A stretch of DNA of 56,392 bases from Opitutaceae bacterium (GTDB lineage Bacteria > Verrucomicrobiota > Verrucomicrobiia > Opitutales > Opitutaceae): NCBI GenBank assembly GCA_005799525.1, contig SYGN01000212.1, positions 1-56,392 of the forward strand. The letters are read 5' to 3'. Within the stretch, counting starts at the first letter, position 1, and each line of letters begins with the position of its first letter. The notes beneath the pieces are model-generated. The model made no database searches. It was given only the letters and a program-made list of their open reading frames with translations, and was not told the origin of the DNA. Made by a program: the position numbers and the translations under genes. Below are positions 27,336-46,385 of the stretch, one piece after another.

Positions 27336-27412
<77 letters not shown>

Positions 27413-28483: not shown

Positions 28484-28518
28484 GCGCGGGGGTGTCCACC
28501 GACCGCCAACGCCCGAGT

Positions 28519-28905
28519 CTATCGTTTCACGACCGCGACACACTCGATCTCGAACTGCAACGATGCTGGCAGGCAGCTTGTAATCGTCGTCCGGGCCGGA
28601 AACGGCACGGAAAAATATTCCCGATAGAGCTCGTTGTAACGGCCGAGATTCTCCGGATCGCGCACGTAGTTACGTGTCTGCACGACGCAGGTCAGATCGG
28701 CTCCCGCGGTTTTGAGCACCTTGCGCAGATTCTCGACTGAGCGCCGAAATTCTCCCTCGAAGGTATCGCTTACGATTTGCCCGGTGGCATCGACCGAAGC
28801 CTGCCCGGACACGAAGATCAGTTCGCCAACGCGCACGGCGGGGCTGAACGGCAGGTGCGAAACCGGGGTATCGGGATTTCGAGGATAGGAAACACTAGGG
28901 TTCAT
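28519..28905 (-). CDS. RidA/YjgF family protein
   Basis: 128 residues from the ATG at 28905. The RidA fold is recognised by VRVGELIFVSGQASVD, FEGEFRRSVENLRKVLKTAGAD and the C-terminal PARTTITSCLPASLQFEIECVA, in which the arginine of the PAR(T/S) motif that binds the iminoacid carboxylate is present. RidA deaminases hydrolyse reactive 2-aminoacrylate or related imines formed by PLP enzymes. Its start overlaps the M81 gene stop as ATGA, and a PLP aminotransferase lies one gene further upstream, so a local role in clearing an imine is plausible. Confidence 0.92.
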   Translation of the reverse strand: MNPSVSYPRNPDTPVSHLPFSPAVRVGELIFVSGQASVDATGQIVSDTFEGEFRRSVENLRKVLKTAGADLTCVVQTRNYVRDPENLGRYNELYREYFSVPFPARTTITSCLPASLQFEIECVAVVKR

Positions 28906-30416
28906 GAAAAAGTGCAGGAAAAAACCGTGTCGGTGTCCAGCGGCCAAACCGGCCGAAGCAGCCGGCGCCAGGTAAAGGTGCCAAGGCTGCTCGAGCACGG
29001 TCCGCGCGTGTCGACGTAGTGCGAGGCACGCGCGATCGGATCGTAAGCGCGTTTGTGCGCAACCGCGGCCTTCACCCCGATCACCGCAAAGTCGCGCGGC
29101 TCCAGCCCTTGGCTGCGCAGCTGCCCAAGATCGAACGGCGGCGTTTTCCGGCTCGTCAGCAAAATCGTCACGCCTGCGCTGCGCACCACCGCGCAGGGCC
29201 CCATCTCAAAACGCGACCCAACCATCGAAGCGAGGTGACTCTGTTTGTCTTCGAGCTCGAACCCACCGCCGCTGCGCGCAACGAGCGTCACGTCCAGCGT
29301 CACCGGACCTTCGTCCAATCGCGAGCCACGCCCGCCGACTGCAATCTCACGCTTCGCCCCGATCGCGAGAGCGGCCAACGCCGCGACTGCGCCAGGGTCG
29401 TTGATCACCACAAGGCTGTTCGCCACACGGTGCGCCAGCAGGGCGCGCAGGATACCTGTGCAGTCGCCGGGCGCACCGGCCCCGATGTTGTCGGCCGGCT
29501 CCACGAGTAAAATTGGCCCGGGCTGCGGTGCCTCGGCGGCGATCCGCGCCACCACTTCGTCCACACCCGGATAACGCACATCACCGCGCTCGCGCAGCGA
29601 CCACGCGAGCCGCACCCCGGCGTGCAACCAGCCGTGCGCCGATTCGGGCGGCGCCACCGTCACGAGGCTAAGCGAGACACCCGTGTCGGGTGTGTCGGCG
29701 AACGAAAATCCCGCCGCCACATTACAGGCCCAGACGTCCGGTTCGGTGGCCTCTAACGTGTTCGCGAAAAGCCCCAGCGAGCGCATTGGATCGACGGCCG
29801 TGCCCGTGCCCGGCGGCGCCCAGATGATCGGCGGCCGGCCCCACACCATGTGCGGCATGCGGCGTTCGCGCAGACAGCGCCCGAGCAGGGCCGTGCCGCG
29901 CCGGGCAGCGTCCTTCGCGTCGATGTGCGGATTCTCCCGATACATCACGAGACCGTTGGCGAGCGCACACATCTTGGCCGAAACGTTGGCGTGCAAATCC
30001 AACACTCCAAAGATCGGCACCCTGTCCGCTCCGGGCAGCGACCGGAGGCGGGCCAGCAACTCCCCTTCCGCATCGGCGAACGATTGCGTCACCATCGCTC
30101 CGTGCAGAACAAGGAAGACTCCGTCCACGCCCGCCGCGAATGCCGGTCGCGCGCGCGCTTCAAACTCCGCCCAAAACGCCTCAAACGCCGCATCCGTCAC
30201 CGTGCCACTCGGGGTCGCCCGCGCGTCGAGCGTGGGAATGACCTTGAAACCCTGCTCCGCGGCCTCCTGGAGAAACCCGTCCGTCGGCGAACCGTCGCCG
30301 CGCTTCCGCCACACGGCCTCGCCCACGACGACATCGAAATGCTCCCAGCGCGTCACCTCATCCACGAACGTGTGCGTCTCGTGGAAAAAACCGGCGGTGA
30401 GAATTCGATAGGCCAT
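28902..30416 (-). CDS. M81-family protein, MlrC-like metallopeptidase
   Basis: 504 residues from the ATG giving MAYRILTAGFFHETHTF. The M81/MlrC family was named for the last step of microcystin breakdown and is widespread in catabolic clusters. Visible are the N-terminal HETHTF, the GVFLVLHGAMVTQSFADAEGELL stretch, VLDLHANVS, YRENPHIDAKDAARR and LLVEPADNIGAGAPGDCTGILRALL, and a C-terminal MlrC_C domain. Frame 28902 continues much further upstream, but that part is the other frame of the aminotransferase. It starts 2 bases after the aminotransferase stop. Confidence 0.92.
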   Translation of the reverse strand: MAYRILTAGFFHETHTFVDEVTRWEHFDVVVGEAVWRKRGDGSPTDGFLQEAAEQGFKVIPTLDARATPSGTVTDAAFEAFWAEFEARARPAFAAGVDGVFLVLHGAMVTQSFADAEGELLARLRSLPGADRVPIFGVLDLHANVSAKMCALANGLVMYRENPHIDAKDAARRGTALLGRCLRERRMPHMVWGRPPIIWAPPGTGTAVDPMRSLGLFANTLEATEPDVWACNVAAGFSFADTPDTGVSLSLVTVAPPESAHGWLHAGVRLAWSLRERGDVRYPGVDEVVARIAAEAPQPGPILLVEPADNIGAGAPGDCTGILRALLAHRVANSLVVINDPGAVAALAALAIGAKREIAVGGRGSRLDEGPVTLDVTLVARSGGGFELEDKQSHLASMVGSRFEMGPCAVVRSAGVTILLTSRKTPPFDLGQLRSQGLEPRDFAVIGVKAAVAHKRAYDPIARASHYVDTRGPCSSSLGTFTWRRLLRPVWPLDTDTVFSCTFS

Positions 30417-30418
30417 CG

Positions 30419-31762
30419 TCAGGTGGCGGGTTTCCAACCGGCGGCGTGTCGCGCGATCGCCCGGCGGATGCGGACGAGCGCTTCCGTCACATCGGCCTCG
30501 GTGTGGGTTGTGCTGATCGACCAGATGCCGCGCTCGATGGCCCGCACGCCTTCCTCCAGCAGGCACCGGCGCAGGTGGGCCCAGCGCGGTGCGTCGTGTC
30601 GCTGCACATAGTCGCGATAGTCGCGAATCAGGCCCTCGCCCACTCCGGGTTTCAGCATGACCGCATGGAAGATCAGGCCGGGCCCTTGCGGCCGGAGTGG
30701 CACATCGTGCTCGCGGGCTAGAGCAGCGAGACCGGTCATCAGCCGTTGGCCGAGCGCCTGCGTGGCGGCGGGAAACTCCGGACCCTGAGCCAGCACCTGA
30801 TCGAGACACCACTTGCTCGCCGCAAGGCAGAGCGGGTTGGCATTGAGCGTGCCGGCATGCACGACTTCGCCAGAAAGAATCTTGGCCATCGCTGCGCGCG
30901 TGCCCGCGAGCGCGGCAAACGGCGTGCCACCACCGATGGCCTTGCCGAGAATTGTGAGGTCGGCCCGGAAGCCGTAGAAACCCTGCGCACTCGCGGCGCC
31001 AAACCGGAAGCCGGTGATCGTTTCGTCGGAAATCATCAGCATGCCGTCGCGGTCGCAGAGTTCCCGGATGGTCGCGAGCTGGCCGGCGACGGGTTCGAGG
31101 CAGCAGGTGTTGCAGAGCACGGGCTCGAACACGATCGCGGCGATCTGGCCGCGGTATTCGTCGACCTTTCGACGGAGGTGCGCGGGGTCGTTCCAACGCA
31201 CCACGACGAACTGGTCGAGCACTTCGGAAATTACCCCCTTGCTCGGATGGAGGCGCGCGGGCGACTCGTCGTCACCCCACACGGCCGGCGGGTTCGCAAA
31301 ACCGACCAACCCTTCATCGGCCCAGCCATGGTAGTGGCCCTCGAACTTCAGAATGAGCTTCCGTCCCGTGTGGGCCCGCGCCAGACGGAACGCCGCCAGG
31401 ACAACCTCCGTGGCCGAGTTGTTGAACCGCACAAGTTCCGCCGACGGCAGCATGCTTTGCAGGCGCTCGGCGACCTCGATTTCGAGTTCGCTCTGGGCCG
31501 CCCAGTGCGTGCCGAGCTTCGCCTGCGCGCCGATCGCCTCCGCCATGCCGGCCGGGGCGTGTCCATAGAGCAAGGCCCCCTGCCCTAGCTGGAAATCGAG
31601 ATAGTGGTTGCCGTCGACGTCCCAGAGATTCGGGCCGCTGCCGCGCGTGAAATAGAGCGGCACCGGGGCCTCCATCTTGCGGATGCCGCTGTTCACGCCG
31701 GCGGCGATGCTGTTTTGGGCCCGTTGAGAGAGCTCTTGGGATTTGGCGAAGGTGTAGGGCAT
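30419..31762 (-). CDS. Class III aminotransferase of the glutamate-1-semialdehyde type
   Basis: 447 residues. A PLP-dependent class III aminotransferase close to the glutamate-1-semialdehyde aminomutase / beta-amino acid transaminase group. Motifs are LWDVDGNHYLDF, FNNSATEVVLAAFRLARAHTGR, the PLP ring contacts Asp246-Glu247 (LMISDETITGFR) and the Schiff-base Lys274 (ILGKAIGGGTPFAAL). It is not likely to be the haem-pathway enzyme because its neighbours are catabolic. It sits in an operon-like row with M81 and RidA genes downstream and a secreted TIM-barrel gene upstream. The substrate is not known. Confidence 0.92.
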   Translation of the reverse strand: MPYTFAKSQELSQRAQNSIAAGVNSGIRKMEAPVPLYFTRGSGPNLWDVDGNHYLDFQLGQGALLYGHAPAGMAEAIGAQAKLGTHWAAQSELEIEVAERLQSMLPSAELVRFNNSATEVVLAAFRLARAHTGRKLILKFEGHYHGWADEGLVGFANPPAVWGDDESPARLHPSKGVISEVLDQFVVVRWNDPAHLRRKVDEYRGQIAAIVFEPVLCNTCCLEPVAGQLATIRELCDRDGMLMISDETITGFRFGAASAQGFYGFRADLTILGKAIGGGTPFAALAGTRAAMAKILSGEVVHAGTLNANPLCLAASKWCLDQVLAQGPEFPAATQALGQRLMTGLAALAREHDVPLRPQGPGLIFHAVMLKPGVGEGLIRDYRDYVQRHDAPRWAHLRRCLLEEGVRAIERGIWSISTTHTEADVTEALVRIRRAIARHAAGWKPAT

Positions 31763-31778
31763 GGCGAAAATTCAGCGG

Positions 31779-33470
31779 TTAACGGACCGGGACGCGGTTC
31801 CAGATTTTCTCGAGATCGTTTTGGTAGTCGTAGCGCACTTCGAGGTCCGTGACTTCGACTGGTTTGGTCGCACCGGCGACCGTGATCGTAAATTCGTTGG
31901 CCCCGTGCACCGGCATCAGCCCCGTCGTGAGCGGCACGTGGAGATATTCTTCCGCTTGGTCCGGCTGCCGCGGCAGGGTCTTCACGAGCTGTTTGGTAAC
32001 CACGCGCGCACCGCTCGTCGTCGCCCCTTCAAAAAGCGGTTTCCCATTCAGCGCGATCGCGATTCTCGCGCCCTCCGGCCACGCCCGCAGCCCCACCCGC
32101 AGCTCGCACGCCTGCAGCGGAAACGGCCCTGCCGAGAGATTTTCCGCGATCGAGAGCACGATCCGCGACATGCCACCCAGCGCGAGTTTGGCGGGGAGTT
32201 GTTTCCCGTAGGCGTAGGAGCCGGGGCCGTCGAAATAGTTGCTCTTGGTCACGGCATAGATGGCCGACTGACCGCGCAGATTTTCGGTCCGCGCGAGATC
32301 GCGAAACACGTGGTAGAGGCGGTCGTCGTGCGGCCGGGCGGCGCCGAAGCCGTTGTAGAAGTTGAAAAGATAAAAGCCGTCGACGCCCATCGCGCGGTAG
32401 TTCGCCGCCGCACCGCGGATTTCCTCAAGCGTGCCGTCGCGGCCGACCGCGGCGCCGGTGTAGCGGTTCGCGCCTGCTGGCGGAAACGGCAACCGCCACG
32501 CGGTCCGCGGATAGAGCGACGGATAGACGCGCACGCCGTGCTGTTTGCCGAGCGCGACAAGGTCGGCGATGGGCATATCCCCCGCGAGCGTCATGATCTG
32601 CGCCGGCGACACGAGATCGACGAGACCCTCGCGCATCCACCGCTCCACGTCGAGGCCGGCCGTCGTGCAATCCGTTACCGACGGCGGCACACGCACAAAA
32701 AGACACATCGGGCGCTTTTCGCTGACGGCGAGCTCATCGAGCCGCGTGCGCACGCGATGGACCAACTCGGTGATCAGCGGAGCACCCGCCACGGCTTTGC
32801 CCTTGGGGAAAAACACTTGAAAGCGGTTGAAATCGAGTTCGAAGCCATCGACGAGGTCGCGGTTGCGCGTGAGCGCCTCGAACACGGCGTCGAGCCGCAG
32901 CTGCCGCACCGCGGCGTGCGAGTAATCGAGGAGATTTCCGTAGGCCGCCTGAAACGCCAACGGCGATTCCTTGATCGTATACTCGTGACGGTGTTTGAAC
33001 CAAAACTCGCTCGTCATCGCATGGCCGTCAGGATTCGCCATGAAGTGCGCATCGTTCATGCGGAGACTCGGGATGAAACGCAGACCGAGCTGCTTCGCCA
33101 TCTCGCCCGCCGTGCGCACCGCGTCGGCGCCTTGCGCGAGGCAAACGCGCGCATTCTCCATGCGTTTCTCCATCAGAGAACCGGGCTTCTCGTCGGGCGA
33201 TTTCCGCCAGCCGACGCGACTGGCGACCTCGGTGTTGTAGTAGAGCAGATCGCCGCCCATGCCGATGCAGTAGACGAACGTCTTCACGGGCGTATCGGCC
33301 AGCGCGCTCACGTTTGCCCGCAGGAGCGCCTCGGACTTCGCCCGGTCCGGCAGGACAAACGCGAGATCGGCATCATCGTTGAACACCACGCCGAAATCCG
33401 GTCGCACGCGCGGCGCCGCGGCGACGACGAGGGAAAAACCAACGAGAAAGACTGCGAGGATGCGTTTCAT
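31779..33470 (-). CDS. Secreted TIM-barrel protein, glycosidase-like, function unknown
   Basis: 563 residues, with a Sec signal peptide MKRILAVFLVGFSLVVAAA. The large middle part contains LLDYSHAAVRQLRLDAVFEALTRN and DGFELDFNRF, then FYLFNFYNGFG, consistent with a (beta/alpha)8 barrel of the uncharacterised glycoside-hydrolase-like type. DGFELDFNR and the Asp/Glu residues around it could be catalytic. The last ~140 residues look like a beta-sandwich with no family assigned. It overlaps the BNR gene upstream by ATGA and precedes the aminotransferase by 16 bases. Confidence 0.82.
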   Translation of the reverse strand: MKRILAVFLVGFSLVVAAAPRVRPDFGVVFNDDADLAFVLPDRAKSEALLRANVSALADTPVKTFVYCIGMGGDLLYYNTEVASRVGWRKSPDEKPGSLMEKRMENARVCLAQGADAVRTAGEMAKQLGLRFIPSLRMNDAHFMANPDGHAMTSEFWFKHRHEYTIKESPLAFQAAYGNLLDYSHAAVRQLRLDAVFEALTRNRDLVDGFELDFNRFQVFFPKGKAVAGAPLITELVHRVRTRLDELAVSEKRPMCLFVRVPPSVTDCTTAGLDVERWMREGLVDLVSPAQIMTLAGDMPIADLVALGKQHGVRVYPSLYPRTAWRLPFPPAGANRYTGAAVGRDGTLEEIRGAAANYRAMGVDGFYLFNFYNGFGAARPHDDRLYHVFRDLARTENLRGQSAIYAVTKSNYFDGPGSYAYGKQLPAKLALGGMSRIVLSIAENLSAGPFPLQACELRVGLRAWPEGARIAIALNGKPLFEGATTSGARVVTKQLVKTLPRQPDQAEEYLHVPLTTGLMPVHGANEFTITVAGATKPVEVTDLEVRYDYQNDLEKIWNRVPVR

Positions 33471-35698
33471 CGCGGGAGTTGGGCGGAGAGTTGGTCGATG
33501 GTGACGTGCCCGGCATCCGCCTCGGCGCGGAATTCGACGCGGAGATAGTTTACCCCGAACTGCGCGGCCCGCGCCGCCGCGACATGCACCGGCGATTTGC
33601 CATCGATGCGGATGAGCACTTCACCCGTTTGCTGCGCGCGGCTCCACGTGAGCACGAGATCGTGCGCGCGACCATCAGCCGGCAACCCGATCTTCGCCGC
33701 CTCGAGCGTGAACACCGCGTGCTCCGCTGCGCGCTTGTCGTCGATGCGGTTGAAGTGGTCGTTGAGACTCAGGCGGACGGCCTTGGCGTGCGCCGGGATT
33801 TGGATGCGCGCCCGCAGCTCCCCGTCCGCCGAAATCGGGAAATTCCAGAGCGCGCCGCAGAGCCCCGTGGCTTTTAGCGGAATCGCTACGGCGCGTGCGC
33901 CACCCTCGGCCGTTTCGGCGCGCAGGCCCTCGTCGCCGTATTGGGTCCACGCGGCGGGGCCGGACGCAAGTTCATCGCGGACGGCGCGCTCTTCGAGCCA
34001 GCGTGGATCAAAAGTCACAATGGCCCGCTTGCCCTCGCCCTGCCCGCTCACGACGACGACCTTGCCGTCGGAGGTTTCGGCGAGCGTCGGATACGACGTG
34101 CCGCGATCACCGCCGCTCACGACATCGGTCTCGTGGAAAATTTCACGAAACCCACGCCACGTTTTTCCTTCGTCGGCACTGATCGCCGCATGCAGCACCT
34201 CGCGACCGCCCATTGCGTAGCTGCGCGCATCGGTCCAGTTCTGGCACGCATTGGTGAGCAGCACGATTTTCCCGTCGCGCAATCGCAACAACGCGGCCGG
34301 AGAATCGGAGGAAATGAACGGAGTTCGCTCCAACGGCGACCAGCGCTCGCCGTCGGTAGAAAACGACTGCACGAGCCGCCCCTGCCGGTCGCGCACGAGC
34401 ATCCAGACGCGGCCGTCGCGGAGTTCGAGCAGCACGGGCTCGATCGCGCCATAGCGGGTGACGTTGGGGGTTTTGAGCTCGAGCGAAAGCACGTCGTAGG
34501 ATTGCCGCCAGGTCGCGCCCTGATCGTCGGAGAAATAGACAAAGGTGTCATTCCAGCCGTAGTCGGGCCCGGAACTCGGGGCCTGCTCCCGCGCGGGAAT
34601 CGCCCGTGCCACGGCGAGCACGAGTCGGCCGCTGCGCGCGAGCTGGATGAAGCCGCGGATCGAGCCGATGTAGCCCGGCACGATCCGCTGCGGGGGCGAC
34701 CACGCCGTGGCACCAGCGGCGAGTTGGGTGTGGTAGACTTCGTAGAGGCGACCGCGGTAGCCGCCCGGGCCTTCGCCAAACACGTGCACGGCGGCGTGGC
34801 GCGCGCCATCGCTCGCCGCGAGCACTTGCAACGCGTAGTAGGCACGCCCCGGCAGCGTAAACGCCGTCTGCGGCTCCGACCACGTGAGCCCGCCATCACG
34901 CGAGCGCTCCACCGTGACGGAATCGCTCGCGGGCTTCGTCACCGAATACGTCTCCAACGTGCTGTCGGCCAAACGCAGGACCGAACTCTCGTTGGTGAGC
35001 GCACTGCGCACGACGACCGGTTCATATACGGCGGCGGAGGTGGCCGGCACGCGGCGCAACTGCATGCCAAACGGGTTGCCGAACGGCTTGGTTCCGATCC
35101 GTGACGTGGCGAATGCACCGCTCGCCGCCAACGTGTAGAGCCGCACGGTGCCGGTGCCGGGATCGAGACCGAGCGAACCCAGGGCCGCCGCACTGCACGC
35201 GCCGCGGTGCACCACCGCGCCATCAGCAAAAATCGCGACGATCTCGCCCTTGCGCTCCATCGCGAGCGAGAAACTTTTCCCGGCATTGAGCACGGGCGCG
35301 GCGATTTCGAGCGGGGCATCGCCCGCGCGAAAAAAACGTCCGCGCAGCTTCCAGACTTTCGCTCCGACCGCTAAGACGAGTTCGCTGTCCCCGCCGAGGA
35401 CGAGCGCCGCCTCGCGGTTCGCGGCGGGCAAGGCGAGTTCCAAATCGACCCGAAAATCGCCCGCGTCGGGCGCGACCTCGGTCAGCAAACGATGGCCGCG
35501 CCCCGTGCCGGCAAGGAAGCCGCCTTGGTCGGCCACCCACGCGTGACCGGTGTAGCGCACGCGGGGTTTGGTCTGGTTTTCGGCGTTGGCGACGAAGGTG
35601 ATCGTTTCGGGTGCCGCCTGCACGGAGACTCCGCCGGCCACCGCGCTCCACCCGGCGAGCCAAAAGCAAACGTGGAGTCGGAAGATCGTCGGGGTCAT
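33467..35698 (-). CDS. Secreted BNR-repeat protein (sialidase-like), large
   Basis: 743 residues with an N-terminal signal (CFWLAGWSAVAGGVSVQAA). Three or more Asp-box BNR repeats are seen: SRDGGLTWSEP, SDDQGATWRQS and SADEGKTWRGF, which places it in the six-bladed propeller group related to sialidases. An N-terminal ~200-residue beta-rich domain and a C-terminal ~130-residue domain flank the propeller. I do not find the FRIP motif of bona fide GH33 sialidases, so the glycosidic specificity is open. It is 15 bases from the TonB-receptor stop and coupled to the next gene by ATGA. Confidence 0.86.
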   Translation of the reverse strand: MTPTIFRLHVCFWLAGWSAVAGGVSVQAAPETITFVANAENQTKPRVRYTGHAWVADQGGFLAGTGRGHRLLTEVAPDAGDFRVDLELALPAANREAALVLGGDSELVLAVGAKVWKLRGRFFRAGDAPLEIAAPVLNAGKSFSLAMERKGEIVAIFADGAVVHRGACSAAALGSLGLDPGTGTVRLYTLAASGAFATSRIGTKPFGNPFGMQLRRVPATSAAVYEPVVVRSALTNESSVLRLADSTLETYSVTKPASDSVTVERSRDGGLTWSEPQTAFTLPGRAYYALQVLAASDGARHAAVHVFGEGPGGYRGRLYEVYHTQLAAGATAWSPPQRIVPGYIGSIRGFIQLARSGRLVLAVARAIPAREQAPSSGPDYGWNDTFVYFSDDQGATWRQSYDVLSLELKTPNVTRYGAIEPVLLELRDGRVWMLVRDRQGRLVQSFSTDGERWSPLERTPFISSDSPAALLRLRDGKIVLLTNACQNWTDARSYAMGGREVLHAAISADEGKTWRGFREIFHETDVVSGGDRGTSYPTLAETSDGKVVVVSGQGEGKRAIVTFDPRWLEERAVRDELASGPAAWTQYGDEGLRAETAEGGARAVAIPLKATGLCGALWNFPISADGELRARIQIPAHAKAVRLSLNDHFNRIDDKRAAEHAVFTLEAAKIGLPADGRAHDLVLTWSRAQQTGEVLIRIDGKSPVHVAAARAAQFGVNYLRVEFRAEADAGHVTIDQLSAQLPR

Positions 35699-35713
35699 CT
35701 CACGGCGACCGTC

Positions 35714-38700
35714 TTAAAACTCAGAGCGGATGCCAAGCGTCACGAGCGTGCCGAAATTCTGGTAGGACTGCGGACGCGTCCACGCCGGCGTGTTCGGACC
35801 GGCCCGCTCGGTGCGCTTGCCGATGCCGGTGAAATTGCGCGCGCCACCGTAGACGCTGAGCTTCTTCGCAAAACGATACTCAAAGGACCAATCCTGCGTG
35901 ATCTGCGGCGCGGTGTAGGTGCGCGTGCCGGCCGGCACCGCGGCGCTCGCGGCCACCGCGGCACCCGTGACTTTGTAGGCGTAGGCGACGTTCCAACGGA
36001 GCGACAGCGCCCGGCGGATGTAGCTGAGACCCCAGTTGATGTTCTTGTGCGCAAAGGGCGTGAAATCATCCGCGTTCTCGCCGCTCACATGCGAGATCGT
36101 GACGTTGGCATAGGTCGAAAAACCTTTCGCCCACGACGGCAGGAAATAGAGCGACTGACGCCAACTCGCCTCATAGCCCTCGACGGTGGCGTTGCCGCCG
36201 TTCGCCTTAGAAATGATCTCGTAGTCGAGGTAGTCGTCCGAGAGCCCATAATTTTGCAGCATTTCCAGCGTCGCGGGGATGCGCGTATCGACGAAGAAGC
36301 CTTTGAGGTCCTTTTTGAAGAGGCTGAGTGAAACCGTCGCGCCTTTGATACCGTAGGTCTCAAACGAGAGGTCGTAGTTATCAGCCGTCCACGGGCTCAG
36401 GCCGCTGTTCACCACCGTCGCGGTGCGAGCGGTGCCCGTCGCGGCCGGATCGGCCACGGTGATGCCGGGAATGATGTTCGACAGGTTGGGCCGACCGATG
36501 GTCTTCGCGTAGGCGAGCCGGGCGACGAGCGAATCGGTGATGTAGTAGGTGCCGTTGATGCTGGGATAGTAGCCGGAGTAGCTGCGGTCCGCCACCGCCC
36601 CGCGCGTGACATAGCGGAGCTTGGCCGTCGCGAGCGCATCGGTCGTGAACGGGATGAACTTGCCCGCCGCATCGCGGAGGAGATTGCCGGCGGCGTCCTG
36701 CCGGTAGGTCGCGCGCAGGTCATTGATCGGGCCTTCACCGTGGTCGTCGGTTTTCTCAAACCGCACACCGCTCACCAGCCAAAGCCGGTTGTTGAGCAGC
36801 TTGATGTCGTGGCGGATGTAGGCGGCCGAAATAGTTTCTTCAAAATACCGGGAATTCGTCACGCCGGATTGGTAGGTCGCCGCATCGCTGATGGTGAACC
36901 AGTCCGGGTGCGCTTTGTAGAGATCGTAGAGCTTGGTCGGGCTGACCCACTTCACCTTCAGCGTGTCGTTAAAGAACGCCCGCTGGGAGAGTGTCTCGTT
37001 GATCAGGTCGTAGCTGCCCACGAGGCGGCTCACGCTGGCCGGCGGCGCAAAGGTCCACGTCTTGAGCTCCGACGTGTTGTCCTTCCGCTGGCGGTTGATG
37101 AGCATACCGGCCTTCAGCGTCATCGGCGAAGAAAACGCAAAACTGCGCGAGATGTTCGCGGAAGCACTCTTCATGTCGCTGACGATTTCGTTCGGCTGAC
37201 TGGTGGGACTCGCCAGCGTGTAGCCTGCCGGGTCGTAGGGATCGACTGCCCGGCCGGTGCGGTCGGTGACCGTGAGCTTTGGCGCGCGGCGGCTATAGAT
37301 CCCGTCGAGGCCATCGGCACGGACGATCACCGAGCCCACTTGCGTGAGGCCGATTCTTTGGAAAAAGCCATGCTCCAAGTCCTTTCGCTCGTCCCAACTG
37401 CGCGAGTAGTTCGCGTTGGCGTCGATCTTGTAGAGTTTGCCGTCGTGCACATAACGGAGCACGGCGGAGGTCGTGCCGCGGGTGCGGTCGCCGGAGGTCA
37501 CGTTCTGCCGTAGGAAGTCGCCGCCGGCCGCCGCACCTTGCGTAAACGTCGGGCCGCCCGTGTTGCCGGCACCCCAGGCTATCGTGTAAATGTTCTGGCG
37601 AGAGGGCGTGTTGATCTGCACGTGCTCGAGATTGAGGCGCAGGGAATTTTCGCGGTTGATGCGCCAATCGAATGTCGTCGAGGCGAGTTGGCGCTCGGTG
37701 GTCTGCAAAACATTTTGCACGGTCGAGGTCGTCTGCACGCCGCGGAAAAGGTCCCACGTCGGGGAATCGTAGTCTTGGTCGTAAACCCGGGTGAGCTGGC
37801 TCAGATTGACCGTGAAGGCGAAGCTCTGGTTCACCGGATGCGAGTAGTTGATATCGAGGCCGGGCTGGATCGCGCGGGCCTTGGAATGCGAGTCGCTGCC
37901 GACGCGCTCGTTCAGCCCGGGCGGCACAAGGCGGTTGTCGGAATTGTAGGCACCGTAGGTGTTGATCTTGAGGACGCGGCGCTTCGTGCTGAAACCGCTT
38001 TTGCCGACGACATTCACGGTGCCGCCCACGGCATTGGCCGGGCGATCGGGCGTGGGGACCTTGGTGATTTCGATGCGGTCGACGCTGCCCGAAGAACTCG
38101 CGGCAAGGTCGAATGAGCGGTCAGCCGAAGGCGTTGAGACTTCAGCACCGTCGATCATGAAGACAATGCCGCTGCCGGGCAGACCGCGGATCGAGGCGGT
38201 CACTGCCGTCTGGGGGCCGCTCACGATCGAGAGACCGGGGGTGTATTTCAGGTATTCGCCGATGTTGCCGTCGCCGAGGTCGCCGATCTCGTCGAGCACG
38301 ATCACATTCTTGATGTTCGGGGACATTTTCTGTTCGTTGACGGCCGCAGCAGCCGCGTTCAGCGCGGTCGATTCAACGACAAAGCTCTCGAGCTTCACCG
38401 CGTCGCCGCCACGCCCGATCGTCGACTGGCGTCTCTCAAACAAAAGATCGAAGTCCTTGCGCGCGGCGCCGCCCGCCGCGGCGGTGACTGCACCGCTCTG
38501 CGTTTCCATGCCGGCGTAGGTAACGCGCAGGCGCACTGTTCCGGCCGGCACGTTGGTGATGCGGTATTCACCTTCGGAATTAGTGAGGGTCTCGATGGTC
38601 GTGCCTTCGACGACGACGCGCGCGTTGTTCAGGTAATTGCCACTCTCGGCATTCTTGACGCGGCCTTCGACCGTCGCCGCGTTGGCCTGCGCCCACACCG

Positions 38701-38830
38701 CGGGCGCCGACAAGGCCGCCAACAACATCGCCAGCGCGGCCAGCACGTGACCGAGCATCTCACGGGCGCAGCCGAAGGGCGCAATACGGCGGTTCGAAAC
38801 AGAGCGGAACGTGGACATCGAGGTGTTCAT
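35714..38830 (-). CDS. TonB-dependent receptor with N-terminal carboxypeptidase-like domain
   Basis: 1038 residues. A signal peptide ends near SAPAVWAQ. A carboxypeptidase-regulatory-like beta sandwich follows (ATVEGRVKNAESGNYLNNARVVVEG), then the plug (VIVLDEIGDLGDGNIGEYLKYTPGLSIV, GIVFMIDGAEV) and a ~750-residue barrel ending in LVTLGIRSEF with a terminal phenylalanine. Such outer-membrane receptors import oligosaccharides or other large nutrients with TonB energy. It sits between the BNR-SGNH fusion and the large BNR protein, so it probably takes up their products. The ATG at 38830 was chosen over an upstream Arg-rich extension. Confidence 0.95.
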   Translation of the reverse strand: MNTSMSTFRSVSNRRIAPFGCAREMLGHVLAALAMLLAALSAPAVWAQANAATVEGRVKNAESGNYLNNARVVVEGTTIETLTNSEGEYRITNVPAGTVRLRVTYAGMETQSGAVTAAAGGAARKDFDLLFERRQSTIGRGGDAVKLESFVVESTALNAAAAAVNEQKMSPNIKNVIVLDEIGDLGDGNIGEYLKYTPGLSIVSGPQTAVTASIRGLPGSGIVFMIDGAEVSTPSADRSFDLAASSSGSVDRIEITKVPTPDRPANAVGGTVNVVGKSGFSTKRRVLKINTYGAYNSDNRLVPPGLNERVGSDSHSKARAIQPGLDINYSHPVNQSFAFTVNLSQLTRVYDQDYDSPTWDLFRGVQTTSTVQNVLQTTERQLASTTFDWRINRENSLRLNLEHVQINTPSRQNIYTIAWGAGNTGGPTFTQGAAAGGDFLRQNVTSGDRTRGTTSAVLRYVHDGKLYKIDANANYSRSWDERKDLEHGFFQRIGLTQVGSVIVRADGLDGIYSRRAPKLTVTDRTGRAVDPYDPAGYTLASPTSQPNEIVSDMKSASANISRSFAFSSPMTLKAGMLINRQRKDNTSELKTWTFAPPASVSRLVGSYDLINETLSQRAFFNDTLKVKWVSPTKLYDLYKAHPDWFTISDAATYQSGVTNSRYFEETISAAYIRHDIKLLNNRLWLVSGVRFEKTDDHGEGPINDLRATYRQDAAGNLLRDAAGKFIPFTTDALATAKLRYVTRGAVADRSYSGYYPSINGTYYITDSLVARLAYAKTIGRPNLSNIIPGITVADPAATGTARTATVVNSGLSPWTADNYDLSFETYGIKGATVSLSLFKKDLKGFFVDTRIPATLEMLQNYGLSDDYLDYEIISKANGGNATVEGYEASWRQSLYFLPSWAKGFSTYANVTISHVSGENADDFTPFAHKNINWGLSYIRRALSLRWNVAYAYKVTGAAVAASAAVPAGTRTYTAPQITQDWSFEYRFAKKLSVYGGARNFTGIGKRTERAGPNTPAWTRPQSYQNFGTLVTLGIRSEF

Positions 38831-38957
38831 AGGCGGTGACCGTGGTCGGCAGAGGGAGGACGTGCGGGGGCGCATCCTTCCGGAGCGTGAATGCGTTTCC
38901 GACACCCGCTGTTCCGAGGGGAATTCACAGGTAATACGTTGTGGCCACGATACGGAA

Positions 38958-40697
38958 CTACGGCGTCGCGGCCCTCGCCAACGGCAACAACGTCGCCGCG
39001 ATCTCCCGCGCCATTTCGGCATGGCCGGTTACATTCGGGTGACAGCCGTCGGTCGTCCAGGTTTGGAGAAGCGTGCCGCCAGTTTGCGCGGCGTCCCACC
39101 GTGCAAAATGGTCCACGAGCGCGACACCCGTTTCGCGGGCGACTTTGCGTGTGAGTTCCATGTAGGCGGCCAACCGTCGGTTCGGGTCCTCGTCGAGGCC
39201 GTTGCGGGGATTTTTCTCCCCAAACTTCGGCTCCGTCATGAGCACGACACCGATCTTCGCCGCGCGCAGGCGGCGCACGATCTCGCGGAGGTTTTTTTGA
39301 AATTCCGCCTCTGTCAGGCGAGAAGCTGTCTTACCCTTGTCGACCCAACTGTCGTTCGTGCCATACATCACTGCGACGAGGTGGGGGCTTTGCGAAATGA
39401 CGTCTTGGTCGAGCCGTTGGAGCGCCAGGTCGGTTCGCTCACTGCCGATGCCGACATTGTGCACCTGCGCCCGCACGCCCGCCTCGCGGAGGGCCGCCTG
39501 CGTGAGCGCAGGGAACGTCTCCTGCGGCGTCACGCGCGGTCGCGCCCCGCGCGTGATCGAATCCCCCAGCGCGACGATGCGCACGGCCGCGCCGTCGAGC
39601 GGCAACGCGACGGGCGCAAGAAAATCGGCTTCGCTCAACTCTGCGCGCAACCCGCCCTGCATGGTCGAGATCCACAGCCGCCCCGGCGCCGCCTCAAACG
39701 CATACGGATACGAAATCCAATAGGCACCTTCGCGTGCACCCTTCGGCACGCGGTTTACGGCGATCACCTGCGGCGTGGTCCACGTAATCCCGTCGTTATT
39801 GGAAAATGTCAGCGAGAGCTCCTCGCGCCGGCCAAGTTTTTTCACGGGATCGGTATAGCGGTTCCACAACAGCGCCACGCGCCCGCTCGCGAGGCGCACC
39901 ATCATGCCCGGCGAATCACTCGCCTCGATCGTCGACGGCATCGCGGAAACCCATTTCAACCCGTCCTTCGAAGTCATCTCTTCAAAGTGCCCGTGCGGCA
40001 CGCGCAGGAGGAGTTTCAGATCACCGTTTCGTTTTTCGAGCACAGTGGCCTCGATCCCGCCGCCGTGCGTGGAGCCGGTGAGACCCGCGACCTTGCCCGC
40101 GTAATTGCCCTGCATGCCGAGATCGATCGGCTCGGAGGCTTTCCACGATTTGCCGAGATCATCGGAAACATAAATGAGCGTCACATGCCGCCCAGGATTC
40201 GCTTTCGCCACCTGCGAAACCAGCACGATTCGCCCCGTCCGCAACTGGATCATCTGCCGCACCGCGCCACACCAGCCATCCTGTAACAGCACCGGCGCCG
40301 CCCACGTTTCACCGTCGTCCGCGCTGCGCGACACATACACCGGCAGCCGACAGCCTTCGAGCGGCCCACCCTGCTTGTCGTCCCACTTGAAGACCTTTTC
40401 GTTGTCGTTGAGAAAAGCGTGGAGCATCACGCCTTCGTTCGTCCGCAACAACGCGCGCTCCGGCCGCGACCGGAAGCGCTTCTGATCGTAGATTTCGCGC
40501 GGTTCCCACGTCTTGCCTTCATCGCGCGAGACCAAGGCACCACCTTCGTTGACGCCCCAAATCGCTCCGACTCCGCCGCGGACAAACGGCCCTTGGTGCG
40601 GCACGCCGAGGCGCGCCACTTTTTCCTGCAGCACAATTTCAGCGTGAGCTACCGCAGCGAAGACGAGACCAATAACGAGAAAGAGGCGGGAGATCAT
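38958..40697 (-). CDS. Secreted BNR (sialidase-like) and SGNH hydrolase fusion
   Basis: 579 residues with signal MISRLFLVIGLVFAAVAHA. Residues 20-360 form a BNR propeller (SRDEGKTWEP, SADDGETWAAP, SDDLGKSWKAS, NNDGITWTTP). Residues 370-579 form an SGNH/GDSL esterase: Ser380 in VALGDSITRG, the GTND block at 446-449, and Asp550/His553 in TDGCHPN. The combination suggests deacetylation coupled to glycan recognition or cleavage, as in sialate O-acetylesterases, but the specificity is inferred only. The Arg-rich frame upstream of the ATG is rejected. It is probably first in the minus-strand run with the TonB receptor 127 bases downstream. Confidence 0.9.
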   Translation of the reverse strand: MISRLFLVIGLVFAAVAHAEIVLQEKVARLGVPHQGPFVRGGVGAIWGVNEGGALVSRDEGKTWEPREIYDQKRFRSRPERALLRTNEGVMLHAFLNDNEKVFKWDDKQGGPLEGCRLPVYVSRSADDGETWAAPVLLQDGWCGAVRQMIQLRTGRIVLVSQVAKANPGRHVTLIYVSDDLGKSWKASEPIDLGMQGNYAGKVAGLTGSTHGGGIEATVLEKRNGDLKLLLRVPHGHFEEMTSKDGLKWVSAMPSTIEASDSPGMMVRLASGRVALLWNRYTDPVKKLGRREELSLTFSNNDGITWTTPQVIAVNRVPKGAREGAYWISYPYAFEAAPGRLWISTMQGGLRAELSEADFLAPVALPLDGAAVRIVALGDSITRGARPRVTPQETFPALTQAALREAGVRAQVHNVGIGSERTDLALQRLDQDVISQSPHLVAVMYGTNDSWVDKGKTASRLTEAEFQKNLREIVRRLRAAKIGVVLMTEPKFGEKNPRNGLDEDPNRRLAAYMELTRKVARETGVALVDHFARWDAAQTGGTLLQTWTTDGCHPNVTGHAEMAREIAATLLPLARAATP

Positions 40698-40770
40698 AGC
40701 GGGAGAGCGGAGGGTGAACGAGCAGCGGTCATTGCAGAAGTCGGCCAATCTCGCGACGAGGGACAAAGGC

Positions 40771-40789
40771 TGGTAACAAAGGTTGACCA
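40771..40789. promoter_or_regulatory. Imperfect palindrome between divergent BNR genes
   Basis: TGGTAACAAAGGTTGACCA is an imperfect palindrome with TGGTnA and TnACCA arms. It lies about 75 bases from both divergent starts (40697 minus, 40868 plus), a natural place for a shared operator. No regulator is proven to bind it. Confidence 0.35.
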
Positions 40790-40867
40790 AACCGCCGCGT
40801 TCGCGTCCACCAGGGAACGAAATTAGCTTTTCGCGTAGTACCCTTCCGCGCGATTCCACGCCCCACC

Positions 40868-42010
40868 ATGTTTAATGTCCGCTTTCCCCACCGCCCATTT
40901 TTCCGCGCTACGACGCTGCTGCTCGTCGCGTCGTTCGCCCCGCTTTTGGCCGCCCCGAACTCCGCGACACCGATCATCTCCAGCTTCATCGCCACCGCCG
41001 ACGCAGTCCACCCGCGCCAGACCGAGGGCGACATCATCGTGCTCCGCGACGGCTCGCTTTTCGCCGCGTGGTCCGACTTCTACGAGAAGGCCAACGACCA
41101 TGCCCCGGCGCGTATCTCCGCCGCCCGCTCCAGCGACGGCGGTCGCACCTGGGGCACTCGATTCACTCTCCAGGAAAACACCGGCCACTCCAACGTCATG
41201 TCCGCGAGCCTCGTCCGCTCACGCACTGGCGACATCTTGTTTTTCTACCTCCAGAAAAACTCCACGACCGATCTCAAAGCCTACGTCCGCCGCTCCTCCG
41301 ACGACGCGCAGACGTGGGGCCCTCCCGTGCTCGTGATGCCCGAACCCGGTTACCACGTGATGAACAACGCCCGCATCATCCAGCTCAAGACCGGCCGCCT
41401 GCTCGCGCCCGTGGCCACCGCCCCGCAGGTCGGCACGAAGAACGACAATTTCAAAACCGTCGTCTACCGCTCTGACGACGACGGACGCACGTGGCAGCGC
41501 GGCACCACTTTCCTCAGCGCCCCGAAACGCGGTGCGATGGAGCCGGGCCTGATCGAGCTAAGGGACGGCCGAGTGCTCCAAATCATCCGCACGCAAACCG
41601 GCAAAATCTGGCACGCCTACTCCGCCGATAGCGGCGACACCTGGACCGAAGCGACCCCTTGGATCATCGAAGCTCCCGAGGCTCCATCGACGCTCGCGCG
41701 CAATCCCGCCAACGGCGACTGGCTCCTCGTCTCGAATCCCACCGTCGTCTGGTCGAACCCCGAGAAAACCGTCCTCGGCACCAATCACGGTGGCCCGCGC
41801 ACCCCGCTCGCCGCGATGATCTCCCACGACGAAGGCCGCACGTGGAGTCGCCCCAAGAATCTCGAGTCTGACCCCAAGGCGACCTACGCCTACACCAGCA
41901 TCACCTTTCACGACGGCCGCGCCCTCCTCAGTTACTACCACTCGCCCGCACCCGGGAAACTCCTCTCGCTCAAATTCCAGAGCGTGCCGCTCGCTTGGTT
42001 CGAACGCTGA
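40868..42010 (+). CDS. Secreted BNR-repeat protein (sialidase-like), single domain
   Basis: 380 residues with a signal peptide ending near APLLAAP. A compact propeller of the BNR_2 type: EGDIIVLRDGSLFAAWSDF, SSDGGRTWGT, SSDDAQTWGP, SDDDGRTWQRG, SADSGDTWTEA and SHDEGRTWSRP. The region around HPRQTEGD occupies the place where family members have an Arg/Glu site, but FRIP is not seen. It is the first plus-strand gene of the divergent pair and is followed by an oxidoreductase and an SDR. The substrate may be an acidic sugar, but this is not proven. Confidence 0.88.
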   Translation: MFNVRFPHRPFFRATTLLLVASFAPLLAAPNSATPIISSFIATADAVHPRQTEGDIIVLRDGSLFAAWSDFYEKANDHAPARISAARSSDGGRTWGTRFTLQENTGHSNVMSASLVRSRTGDILFFYLQKNSTTDLKAYVRRSSDDAQTWGPPVLVMPEPGYHVMNNARIIQLKTGRLLAPVATAPQVGTKNDNFKTVVYRSDDDGRTWQRGTTFLSAPKRGAMEPGLIELRDGRVLQIIRTQTGKIWHAYSADSGDTWTEATPWIIEAPEAPSTLARNPANGDWLLVSNPTVVWSNPEKTVLGTNHGGPRTPLAAMISHDEGRTWSRPKNLESDPKATYAYTSITFHDGRALLSYYHSPAPGKLLSLKFQSVPLAWFER

Positions 42011-42052: not shown

Positions 42053-43108
42053 GTGAGCCTCGCATCACCATCGTCTGTCACCCTCTCCGTTTCGCCTCCG
42101 CGGCATTCCGTGCTGATCATCGGCTGCGGCAGCATCGGCGAACGCCACCTGCGGTGCTTCCTACACACCGGGCGCGCCACCGTCACCGCGTGTGATCGCG
42201 ACCAAGCTCGGCTCGCCCAAATCGCCGCGACCTACGCCGTTCCCGTCACCACCGATGCCGAGACCGCGCTCGCCAGCGGGCGCTTCGATGCTGTGATCAT
42301 CTGCGCTCCCGCTCCCGCCCACGTTCCGCTGGCGCGCCGCGCGTTGGCCGCGGGACTGCACGTCCTCCTCGAAAAACCGCTCTCCCACGTGCTCGAAGGC
42401 GTCGCCGAGTTGCTGGCCGAGAGCACCCAGTCCCGCCGTCAGGTCGCCGTCGCCTACGTTTACCACGTCTATCCGTTTCTCGCGGCCGCCCAGGCTTTCC
42501 TCGCTGCAGCGAGCTTCGGCCCCGTGCTGCACGCGACCGTCGCCAGCGGACACCCCTTTCACCTGCTGCGGCCCGCTTACGCGCAAACGTATTTCCGCGA
42601 CCGCGCCACCGGAGGCGGTGCCATTCAAGACGCACTCACTCACGTCGCCAACTGGATCGAGCACGTCCTCGGCCCGACCGACAGCGTCGTCTGCGACTGC
42701 GCGCATCTGGCCCTGGCCGATGTCGATGTCGAAGATACCGTGCACGTGCACGCACGCCACGGCCGCACACTCGTGAGCTATGCGCTCAACCAATTCCAAG
42801 CGCCGAACGAATCCACCGTCCAATTCGATGCCAAGGGCGGCAGCTTGAAAATCGAGTTTCACCGCCAGCGCTGGGGCACGTGGGCCGCGAGCGCCACCGA
42901 TTGGACGTGGCACGAAGCGAGCGTCGCCGAGCGCGATGCGCATTTTACGGCGCAAGCCCACGCCTTCCTTGATCAAATCGATGGCCAGCCGCCGCGCCTC
43001 TGCTCGCTCGCTGCCGCCGCGCAAACCCTCCGCTTCAATCTCGCCTGCCTCGCCTCCGCTCAATCGGACCATCGCATCTACTGCCGCACGCTTTCTCCTC
43101 ATGCCTGA
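42053..43108 (+). CDS. Gfo/Idh/MocA-family oxidoreductase
   Basis: 351 residues, GTG start. An N-terminal Rossmann domain (LIIGCGSIGERHLRCF) and the family's EKP motif (LHVLLEKPLSH) precede the alpha/beta C-terminal domain with the histidine region GGGAIQDALTHVANWIEHVLG. Such enzymes oxidise or reduce sugar hydroxyls with NAD(P). The stop overlaps the SDR start by 8 bases. No signal peptide, so it acts inside the cell, in contrast with the exported Gfo/Idh protein at 47291. Confidence 0.9.
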   Translation: MSLASPSSVTLSVSPPRHSVLIIGCGSIGERHLRCFLHTGRATVTACDRDQARLAQIAATYAVPVTTDAETALASGRFDAVIICAPAPAHVPLARRALAAGLHVLLEKPLSHVLEGVAELLAESTQSRRQVAVAYVYHVYPFLAAAQAFLAAASFGPVLHATVASGHPFHLLRPAYAQTYFRDRATGGGAIQDALTHVANWIEHVLGPTDSVVCDCAHLALADVDVEDTVHVHARHGRTLVSYALNQFQAPNESTVQFDAKGGSLKIEFHRQRWGTWAASATDWTWHEASVAERDAHFTAQAHAFLDQIDGQPPRLCSLAAAAQTLRFNLACLASAQSDHRIYCRTLSPHA

Positions 43109-43886
43109 AGCACCGCTCATTTCTCTCGCCGGGAAACGCGTCGTCCAATGGGGCGCCTCCGGACTCCTCGGCCGCGCACTCGCTCGCGGGCTGGTCACTG
43201 CCGGCGCCGAGGTGATCCTCGTCTCCCGGGAGACCACCCGCCCCGATTCGCTCCCGGCCGCCCCGTCACCCGGCCCCGGAACGCTCGCGTTCGAGCAAGC
43301 CGACCTCGGCCACGAGGCGTCCATTCACGCCCTGCGCGACCGCCTGATGGCGCGCCACGGGCGCATCGACGGTTTCGTCTACAACGCGGTCGCCCGGCCC
43401 ATGCGTTCGATGGAAGATGATCTCGCCACGTGGCGAGAATCTATGGAGGTCAACGCCACGGGCCTGTTCGCCGCTTCACGTGTCTTCGGCGATGCGATGG
43501 CCGCAGCCGGCCGCGGGAGCATCGTCATGATCGCGTCGATCCAGGGCATGGTCGGCCACCAACCCTCGCTCTACGAAGGGACCGCCCTCACGTCGCGGCC
43601 TGACTACTTTTTTCACAAGGCCGGGATGCTGAACCTCACGCGTTACCTTGCCTCGCACTACGGCACGCGCGGCGTGCGCGTGAACACCGTGTCCCCCGGC
43701 GGCATTTACGATCCCGCCACGCCCCAACAGGCGGACTTCATCGCACGCTACAATCCGCTCACCATGTTGGGCCGAATGGCCGACGCTTCCGAAATCACCG
43801 GGTCGGTCGCCTTCCTGCTCAGCGACGCCGCGACCTACGTGACCGGCATCAACCTCCCCGTCGACGGCGGCTACACCGCGAAGTAG
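43101..43886 (+). CDS. Short-chain dehydrogenase/reductase
   Basis: 261 residues from the ATG overlapping the oxidoreductase stop. Classical SDR features are VQWGASGLLGRALARGL in place of TGxxxGIG, the DGFVYNAVA strand (NNAG equivalent), VMIASIQG, the active-site Tyr-x3-Lys (PDYFFHKAG) and VNTVSPGGIYDPATP. The altered glycine motif (GASGLLG) is seen in subgroups acting on sugar acids. The gene is probably co-transcribed with the BNR and Gfo/Idh genes. Confidence 0.88.
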   Translation: MPEAPLISLAGKRVVQWGASGLLGRALARGLVTAGAEVILVSRETTRPDSLPAAPSPGPGTLAFEQADLGHEASIHALRDRLMARHGRIDGFVYNAVARPMRSMEDDLATWRESMEVNATGLFAASRVFGDAMAAAGRGSIVMIASIQGMVGHQPSLYEGTALTSRPDYFFHKAGMLNLTRYLASHYGTRGVRVNTVSPGGIYDPATPQQADFIARYNPLTMLGRMADASEITGSVAFLLSDAATYVTGINLPVDGGYTAK

Positions 43887-43910: not shown

Positions 43911-45146
43911 TCACACCGCTTCGGTCTTCCGCGGCTTCACGAAAAACAACAGCACCGCACACACCACAATGCTCGCAGCGCCGAAGTGAAACACGTTGCT
44001 CACGTCGATCTTGGCGTCACGCAACGCGCCGCCGGCGTAAATCGTGATGCCGCCGACCACACACGCACAGAGATTGAGCACGCCGTAGCCGGTCGCGCGG
44101 TAGCGCTTGTCCGAGACCAGAGTGAGAATCGGCATCATGTTGGCATCGGCAAACGACTTGGTGAGGCCGAACAGCATCAACCCACCGAGCGCGAGCGGCA
44201 GCACATTCGTGCTCGAAGCCAGCAAGATGGCCGGCGCCGCCACACACATACCGATGAGCGGCACGAGCACCGGGGCATTCGGACCCGTCCGGCTCCAACG
44301 GTCTGCCAACCAGCCGCCGAACAAAATTCCGACGATTGACGCGCCTTGGTAATATCCCGTCGCCGAAATTCCCGCGACACCCTGCCCGAGCGAAAAATGC
44401 TCCTTCAAGTAAGTCGGCATCCATCCGACCACCGACCACACGCTCATGCCGAGCAGTCCCCAGTAACCCAACGCCAGTAGAAACGCCCGGCTGCTGAACA
44501 GACTCCGCAGCGCCTCGCCGAGTTTCACTTCTTCCACTGCGGGCGTCGCCGCCGTCTTACCCGCCGCCAGCACCCGTTGATCGCGCAGGAAGATTGCCGT
44601 CACGATTGCCAGCACGACACCGAGTTGGCCGAACCACTCAAACGCCTGCGCCCAACCGTGGCTCTCGGCAATCATCCCGCCGACGCCGCCCATGCCGGCA
44701 CCCACCATCACACCGCTCAAATGCACGCTGTTGGCCTACGAACGCGTTTTCACCCCGTGGTAATCCGCGATCAACGCCAGCGCCGCCGGGATGTAGCATG
44801 CCTCGCTGATGCCCACGAGGGCCCGCGTCGCGAGCAGTTGGCCATAGGTCGTCGCATGCGCCGTGAGCCACGTGATCACCGACCACGCGACGAGGCTGAT
44901 CACAATCACGTGACTGCGGTTGAACCGATCCGCGAGATATCCCGCAAACGGACTCAGCACACCATACACGATCAGGAAAATCGTCGTCAGCAGACCGAAC
45001 TGCGCATCGGTCATCGGGATCACATCCACGATGGATTGCCGCATCGTCGTAATCATGACGCGGTCGAGGTAGTTCAGAAATCCGACGAACCACAGCAACG
45101 TGACTGTCATCCACGCGCGCAACGGGGTGACTTCCACCGAACTCAT
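43911..45146 (-). pseudogene. MFS transporter interrupted by an in-frame TAG
   Basis: Read from the ATG at 45146, the frame encodes a major facilitator with MSSVEVTPLRAWMTVTLLWF and LNYLDRVMITTMR, then stops at a TAG (44736-44738, codon 137) after YHGVKTRS. The same frame continues without any shift through ANSVHLSGVMVGAGMGG to a normal C-terminus, giving 12 membrane segments in total (411 codons). The family normally has a leucine or similar residue in place of the stop (RS-x-A), so a TTG-to-TAG change is likely. Family members near NanM-like proteins import sugar acids. It overlaps the kelch gene stop by ATGA. Confidence 0.9.
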
Positions 45147-46198: not shown

Positions 46199-46385
46199 GG
46201 GCTGGTGGGGGTGGGCCGACATAGCGTGTGCAGTTTTTGTCTCGCGGCGGCGAGGCCGGAAACGTGGCGCGGTTTTCGCGGCGATTTTCCCCGCGGACAA
46301 CGCCCGCAAACTGGTCACATGAAATGCCACGGTTTCCCCGATTGTCCTTCGCGTCGCGCCGGGCCTAGTTTCCGCGCCCAACCTC

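Follow-up and report, generated by a model that had tools for sequence, protein, structure and literature searches.

A sialidase operon joined to an aminotransferase-M81-RidA cassette in Opitutaceae, and a predicted epimerase-free route of sialic-acid use

The 56,392-nucleotide stretch analysed here (the window) is a whole contig (C169, SYGN01000212.1) of an Opitutaceae metagenome-assembled genome (MAG; G000, with an assembly size of 4.7 Mb, 343 contigs and a completeness of 84%), and at positions 28519-40697 it carries seven tightly packed open reading frames (ORFs) encoding a BNR-SGNH fusion, a TonB-dependent receptor, a large BNR protein, a TIM-barrel protein, a class III aminotransferase, an M81 protein and RidA (Table 1). 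We tentatively read these genes, at somewhat below even chances, as the harvesting and nitrogen-removal arms of a sialic-acid (nonulosonate) super-locus spanning 28.5-55.5 kb, in which N-acetylmannosamine (ManNAc) would be oxidized, deacetylated and deaminated rather than epimerized. This reading draws on the gene content, the assignment of one protein to GH156, conserved zinc and pyridoxal phosphate (PLP) residues, patterns of linkage and replacement among relatives, and the finding that no gene matched known epimerase families above cut-off. The sialidase operon recurs in relatives and, with the catabolic cassette joined to it, is a new variant among sialic-acid utilization loci; the alternative pathway that we predict for it is specific. 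We found no paper on the combination of M81, RidA, aminotransferase and GH156 with sialic acid in the open-licence PMC literature.

According to PMC10570557, genes for sialidases are far more numerous than nanE in non-human environments. A locus with sialidases of two folds, no member of a known epimerase family and a joined aminotransferase-M81-RidA triad makes an alternative route directly testable. Such a route, if real, would place a non-microcystinase M81 clade in metabolism, assign an amino-sugar role to M81 and supply a physiological context for a RidA protein.

The seven-gene operon and its predicted sialidases

An earlier note on this DNA, made from the sequence alone, described seven packed minus-strand genes, and all seven ORFs are indeed present (start codons were hand-chosen). 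The 'several' ATGA overlaps that it mentioned amount to two, each of 4 bp, at the BNR/TIM-barrel and M81/RidA junctions, and the remaining gaps are 127, 15, 16 and 2 bp. Pattern scans of 28400-41000 found no consensus promoter and did no better than shuffles for terminator-like sites (8 against a shuffle mean of 11.7), so spacing is the sole argument for co-transcription. The same seven-gene order occurs in four relatives' loci (L053, L054, L058 and L060) and in a fifth cut by a contig end (L052), with an extra BNR gene between the TonB receptor and BNR-SGNH genes in L052-L054. The arrangement is thus not a matter of chance, and its recurrence in five loci supports one operon.

Pfam backs six of the seven gene labels in the earlier note, the exception being the TIM-barrel protein, which matched nothing in Pfam or NCBIfam and which we reassign. 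Its only match in the Protein Data Bank (PDB) is EnvSia156 (6rzd; phmmer, E 3.7e-20), and a 16-sequence profile of the protein reaches EnvSia156 at 3.5e-41. The structural comparison put forward in the earlier note gave a consistent answer: the AlphaFold model (mean pLDDT 84.8) matches GH156 chains, the three listed standing at about 1e-35 and the next match at 3e-11. According to PMC6811678, D14 and H134 of EnvSia156 are catalytic, and R129, R202 and N346 form a carboxylate triad. Counted along the alignment, the window protein keeps R129, D132, H134, R202 and N346; D14 aligns with window D33 in a weak but collinear N-terminal match of the profile alignment. The counterparts of D14, R129, H134, R202 and N346 are invariant in 16 of 16 sequences. 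By sequence, modelled fold and active-site residues, the protein is a GH156-type exosialidase with a predicted inverting activity. In contrast to EnvSia156, it lacks the aromatic aglycone platform (W164, F278, W279), so its leaving group may differ, and its surroundings are unlike the GH29/GH20 neighbourhood reported in the paper that described the discovery of GH156 (PMC6254351).

The label of the large BNR protein also needs revision. This 743-aa protein matches Akkermansia-type sialidase chains in the PDB at E 1e-23 to 4e-22 and, in alignment, retains E218 and D345 of the Akkermansia enzyme AmGH181. It differs in reading Ser-Tyr where 8hls and 8axi, which are AmGH181 and whose numbering fits the published residues, show His349-Gln350. 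The top chain, 9eob, reads Ala-Tyr at the same place, and we take it for a mutant. The AmGH181 residues E218, D345 and His349-Gln350 are those given in PMC10067855. Because Ser-Tyr replaces His349-Gln350, we rejected the protein as a true GH181 member. It looks like a sialidase with a GH33-type Tyr/Glu pair inside the GH181 neighbourhood, and is possibly an intermediate that links the retaining sialidases of GH33 with the inverting ones of GH181. For the BNR-SGNH fusion, sialate O-acetylesterase is the natural guess. The earlier suggestion that a TonB system joined to nitrogen-handling enzymes serves an N-containing acidic substrate yielding an imine fits sialic acid well, and the TIM-barrel protein gives the operon a predicted sialidase with a different fold.

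The triad and its fusion to sialidases

The last three genes of the operon form a unit of their own. In 72 of 250 family genomes M81 has a match with an E value no higher than 1e-20, and in 61 one with an identity of at least 50%. From these 61 we surveyed 58 loci, one per genome, leaving out the window itself and the contig-edge fragments G115 and G159 (identity thresholds were hand-set). In all 54 loci where 1.3 kb or more is available upstream, the aminotransferase gene immediately precedes M81; RidA immediately follows M81 in 52 of the 56 that have space for it (misses: L038, L039, L171, L172). The triad is therefore a separate, conserved unit in Opitutaceae. Upstream sequence of 6 kb or more is available for 43 of the relatives' loci, of which 31 have Amidohydro_2, 29 a fold III PLP enzyme (Ala_racemase_N plus D-ser_dehydrat), 28 an IclR regulator and 15 an FAH hydrolase. 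As a rule the triad faces Amidohydro_2 and the fold III enzyme. Because most triads lie in sialidase-free loci, the seven genes are best seen as two modules joined in some genomes; the single operon envisaged in the earlier note holds where the seven-gene order recurs, not for the triad in most relatives.

Outside the family, M81 adjoins a 33-39% identical aminotransferase in a Hyphomicrobiales MAG (L084), Microvirga (L089) and Chitinophaga (L092), the pair in L084 being followed by a 32% AstE match. No adjacent aminotransferase match was found in seven other distant loci, some of them short (L085-L088, L090, L091, L093). Plasmid searches returned an unannotated Microvirga record with M81 near an aminotransferase; otherwise M81 or the aminotransferase stood in different contexts. 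In one of the seven loci, from a Hyphomicrobiales MAG (L091, 8746-14344), two BNR-like ORFs flank an M81 relative, which links M81 to BNR independently.

The M81 protein belongs to the M81 family (DUF1485 and MlrC_C above cut-off), and its zinc ligands E13, D140, H142 and H164 are invariant in 52 of 52 aligned sequences, after removal of duplicates and of sequences with internal stops. These MlrC ligands, together with a PDB match to 7ylq at E 5e-25, might be taken to mean that the protein is a microcystinase and that the locus degrades cyanobacterial peptides. We consider this extremely improbable and rejected the assignment, since the protein scores 94 bits against a cut-off of 999 with the NCBIfam MlrC model, 3iuu matches it better than MlrC does, and the genes around it are for sialidases and sugar acids. 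In the aminotransferase, the PLP lysine (Lys274) and the GSAM-type residues Arg28, Asn218 and Glu410 are conserved. Despite this likeness it is not the HemL of its genome: it scores 298 bits with the NCBIfam HemL equivalog, below the cut-off of 527.3, and a HemL above cut-off is encoded elsewhere in three of the four genomes tested (G000, G026 and G212), the window genome among them.

The triad adjoins sialidase genes in 10 genomes: G000, G026, G146, G129, G157, G212, G227, G112, G160 and G143. The last two fusions are seen at contig ends (G143 was counted from an aminotransferase fragment, G160 from two contigs), and some of the triads counted as 'non-fused' stop close to the edge of a contig. 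Genome-wide, the usual partners of the triad, Amidohydro_2 and the fold III PLP enzyme, each occur in none of the 10 fused genomes vs 46 of the 52 other triad genomes, with the fold III enzyme counted only at 50% identity or more (weaker matches in G154, G168 and G082 are left uncounted). Two genes from further along the window show the opposite pattern, as AstE is present in nine of 10 fused vs 21 of 52 other triad genomes, and the threonine-synthase-like (ThrS-like) fold II PLP enzyme in eight of 10 vs 20 of 52. Where ThrS-like occurs (28 genomes), its start is within 2.4 kb of that of AstE in 26. Its distance from the triad is 24 and 34 kb in two single-contig genomes of one genus, each with a chance probability of about 0.01, and in L044 the pair is 10-12 kb from a triad that has no sialidases. 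Among 22 genomes with a close GH156 (a set that takes in the G240 and G194 fragments and leaves out the 44% G231 fragment), AstE is found in 12 of 16 with the triad and none of six without it. Genome lists for some of the partner and GH156 counts were copied by hand, and the Fisher tests are uncorrected for kinship and multiple looks. With kinship thus uncorrected, both linkage and replacement connect the triad with the sialidases.

A tree of 52 concatenated M81 and aminotransferase sequences places all nine fused members in a 12-member clade (support 0.999) together with three non-fused ones; at a support of 0.54, either a single fusion that was later lost in places or repeated fusion may lie behind this. 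Comparison of G112 with the window shows 82-92% identity over the aligned BNR/GH156 bins (one partly covered bin excepted) but 67-81% beyond a point about 250 bp into the aminotransferase gene, where G026 stays at 85-95%. This drop suggests that the G112 triad was probably swapped in place while the fusion was kept. In both G112 (L061) and G160 (L063 and L116) the triad allele is unlike that of congeners and GH156 is 91% identical, a pattern that suggests in-place cassette exchange.

The missing epimerase and a candidate route

NanE (PF04131) was found above cut-off in only four of 250 family genomes (seven at E 0.001) and in none of the nine genomes of the genus. The alternative epimerase family, PF07221, occurs in 127 of the 250 and in two of the nine, and is absent from nine of the 10 fused genomes, that of the window among them. 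Taken together, one or other family is present in one of 10 fused vs 11 of 12 non-fused close-GH156 genomes. Since G026 is listed as 100% complete, missing data alone cannot explain the absence. The super-locus shares sialidases, NanM, a major facilitator superfamily (MFS) carrier and a GntR regulator with classical nan loci, whether NanA-NanK-NanE or NanA-AGE, and differs from them in the epimerase counts just given and in its DHDPS. One such classical arrangement, a NanA-NanM-PF07221 operon (L155), is found in G007, which has GH156 without a close triad. We rejected a complete classical nan route on the epimerase counts, even though NagB is present.

In the route that we propose, secreted sialidases of two folds (GH156 and GH181/GH33-like) and the BNR-SGNH esterase would release sialic acid, to be imported through the TonB receptor, the NanM-type kelch protein and the MFS carrier. 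A NanA-like lyase encoded elsewhere in the genome would cleave it to pyruvate and ManNAc, which an SDR or Gfo/Idh enzyme may oxidize at C1 in place of the missing NanE/AGE epimerization. AstE and/or M81 would then remove the N-acetyl group, the ThrS-like and/or GSAM-like enzyme would deaminate the amino-sugar acid with RidA hydrolysing the imine, and the HpcH-type aldolase would cleave the resulting 2-keto-3-deoxy acid. All reactions after the release of sialic acid, the order of steps, and the deacylase and PLP enzyme assignments are what we infer from the genes. The specific non-phosphorylative, epimerase-free sequence from ManNAc to N-acetylmannosaminate, deacetylation by AstE or M81 and L-type PLP deamination with RidA is possible, if doubtful. 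The pathway likely extends beyond the seven genes described earlier, to about 55.5 kb.

The stereochemistry at C2 bears on this sequence. Mannosaminate is S at C2, like an L-amino acid, and glucosaminate is R; being opposite there, they would need different sets of enzymes, that for mannosaminate differing from the ong set. The configuration of mannosaminate would explain why the fold III (D-type) enzyme is missing from the fused genomes and AstE and the fold II enzyme are mostly present. The ong cluster of Pseudoalteromonas prydzensis, which serves oxidative chitin use, is by analogy the closest worked precedent: as described in PMC9537276, a deacetylase and a fold III PLP deaminase convert N-acetylglucosaminate to KDG, and growth requires a RidA protein, whose role is given as unknown. 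Like the window, ong brings together TonB receptors, an exo-glycosidase, a deacylase, a PLP deaminase and RidA in one locus. Its enzymes for N-acetylglucosaminate are a D-aminoacylase, a fold III deaminase and KdgK, whereas the window has sialidases, AstE/M81, a fold II PLP enzyme and the GSAM-like aminotransferase. Neither the OngB D-aminoacylase nor the OngC fold III deaminase was among the scanned window genes, although no search aimed at OngB or OngC was made.

Several observations weigh against the route. The roles of M81 and the aminotransferase are its weakest part, as they are given no step beyond the capability of AstE and ThrS-like, and no lactonase was identified in the super-locus. 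The fused genome G129 carries a PF07221 gene, and ThrS-like is absent from G129 and G112. NagB was matched in 24 of 25 genomes tested (23 above cut-off, that of the window included), so that only the epimerase step is missing from the classical route. Sialidase genes are found in just six of the 43 triad loci with at least 6 kb upstream. The associations ignore kinship, and within genus g7 the fold III contrast is only none of two vs five of nine. Finally, the DHDPS of the super-locus lacks S47, T48, D191, E192 and S208 of NanA; the Ser-Thr, Asp-Glu and Ser of NanA are replaced in it by Thr-Cys, Glu-Phe and Gly. On this check we rejected it as NanA. All eight of the triad- or sialidase-linked relatives examined (L038, L040, L043, L044, L082, L112, L127, L128) share this signature, and by these residues the enzymes are a subgroup with an active site of their own.

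A more NanA-like gene stands elsewhere in G000 and G026, 29-32% identical to Escherichia coli NanA and with the Asp-Glu and Ser kept; the NanA equivalog model was uninformative (none of 23 genomes above cut-off). This gene adjoins a TonB receptor gene in both genomes (L151, 3895-7047, in G026; L154, 690-1622, in G000), marking a second sialic-acid locus, and in G026 it is also near a second NanM paralogue.

Much of this would suit a more conventional explanation, in which sialidase harvesting is followed by a classical ending, with an unrecognized ManNAc epimerase and NagA/NagB, while the co-transcribed triad serves an N-acyl amino acid or another amino-sugar acid. The near-universal NagB, the independence of the triad from sialidases in most relatives, the NanA-like gene elsewhere, the epimerase-like DUF4432 beside AstE and, outside the family, the adjacency of M81 and an aminotransferase without sialidases all favour it. 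It sits less well with the fact that all 10 fused genomes have lost the partners that the triad usually has, with the probable swap of the G112 triad in place while the fusion was kept, and with the lack of NanE and the presence of PF07221 in only one of the 10. We regard this explanation as a substantial possibility, well short of even chances.

The substrate could instead be a bacterial diamino nonulosonate of the legionaminate or pseudaminate type. These sugars carry two N-acyl groups and two amines, and would need two deacylases and two PLP enzymes; AstE, M81 and two PLP enzymes are what the super-locus holds. The loss of the GH156 aglycone platform and the separate DHDPS subgroup point the same way. 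We nevertheless think such a substrate unlikely, as the GH156 protein retains the glycerol-side and carboxylate residues that were checked and about half of the triad genomes are without the AstE-ThrS-like pair.

Features of the super-locus

The window genes of the proposed super-locus are listed in Table 1. The contigs of G026, G212 and G227 continue as the window does, with MFS, NanM, HpcH, ThrS-like, DUF4432, AstE, SDR, DHDPS and GntR genes, and that of G129 stops after HpcH.

Table 1. Genes of the operon and of the proposed super-locus, with window positions.
Feature	Position	Strand	Basis
RidA-family imine deaminase	28519..28905	-	Pfam Ribonuc_L-PSP
M81 zinc hydrolase	28902..30416	-	Pfam DUF1485 + MlrC_C; four MlrC zinc ligands kept
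GSAM-like class III aminotransferase	30419..31762	-	Pfam Aminotran_3; HemL model 298/527 bits; PLP Lys274
GH156-type exosialidase (TIM-barrel), predicted	31779..33470	-	6rzd match, profile, structure model
BNR sialidase-like protein, GH181-related, Tyr at GH181 Gln350 place	33467..35698	-	PDB matches, alignments
TonB-dependent receptor	35714..38830	-	Pfam; TIGR01782 above cut-off
BNR (sialidase-like) + SGNH esterase fusion	38958..40697	-	Pfam BNR_2, Lipase_GDSL_2
Third BNR protein, divergently transcribed	40868..42010	+	Pfam BNR_2
Gfo/Idh oxidoreductase	42053..43108	+	Pfam; kept beside operon in G129
SDR oxidoreductase	43101..43886	+	Pfam
MFS carrier, one in-frame stop	43911..45173	-	two ORFs with MFS_1 matches
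NanM-type kelch protein	45143..46447	-	PF24996 E 2.4e-34
HpcH/HpaI-type aldolase	46386..47162	+	Pfam; HpaI and GarL models below cut-off
ThrS-like fold II PLP enzyme	49447..50547	-	PF00291 E 2.3e-68; models below cut-off
DUF4432 (aldose-epimerase-like)	50520..51662	-	PF14486
AstE/AspA deacylase, DoeB-like below cut-off	51520..52617	+	PF24827; TIGR02994 110/403 bits
SDR oxidoreductase	52626..53393	-	Pfam
DHDPS-superfamily enzyme, not NanA by residues	53451..54383	-	Pfam; residue check
GntR regulator with sugar-binding domain	54409..55503	+	Pfam

The in-frame stop in the MFS gene of this MAG is either a real pseudogene or an assembly error; the same stretch is free of stops in L124, L127, L128 and L130 (G026, G212, G227 and G129). 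The true start of AstE is probably near 51568. A Gfo/Idh ORF at 47634-48662 matches C-terminal domain models only, and its N-terminal half may be lost or lie in another frame. Just outside the operon, a tRNA-Pro(GGG) gene is found at 27336-27412.

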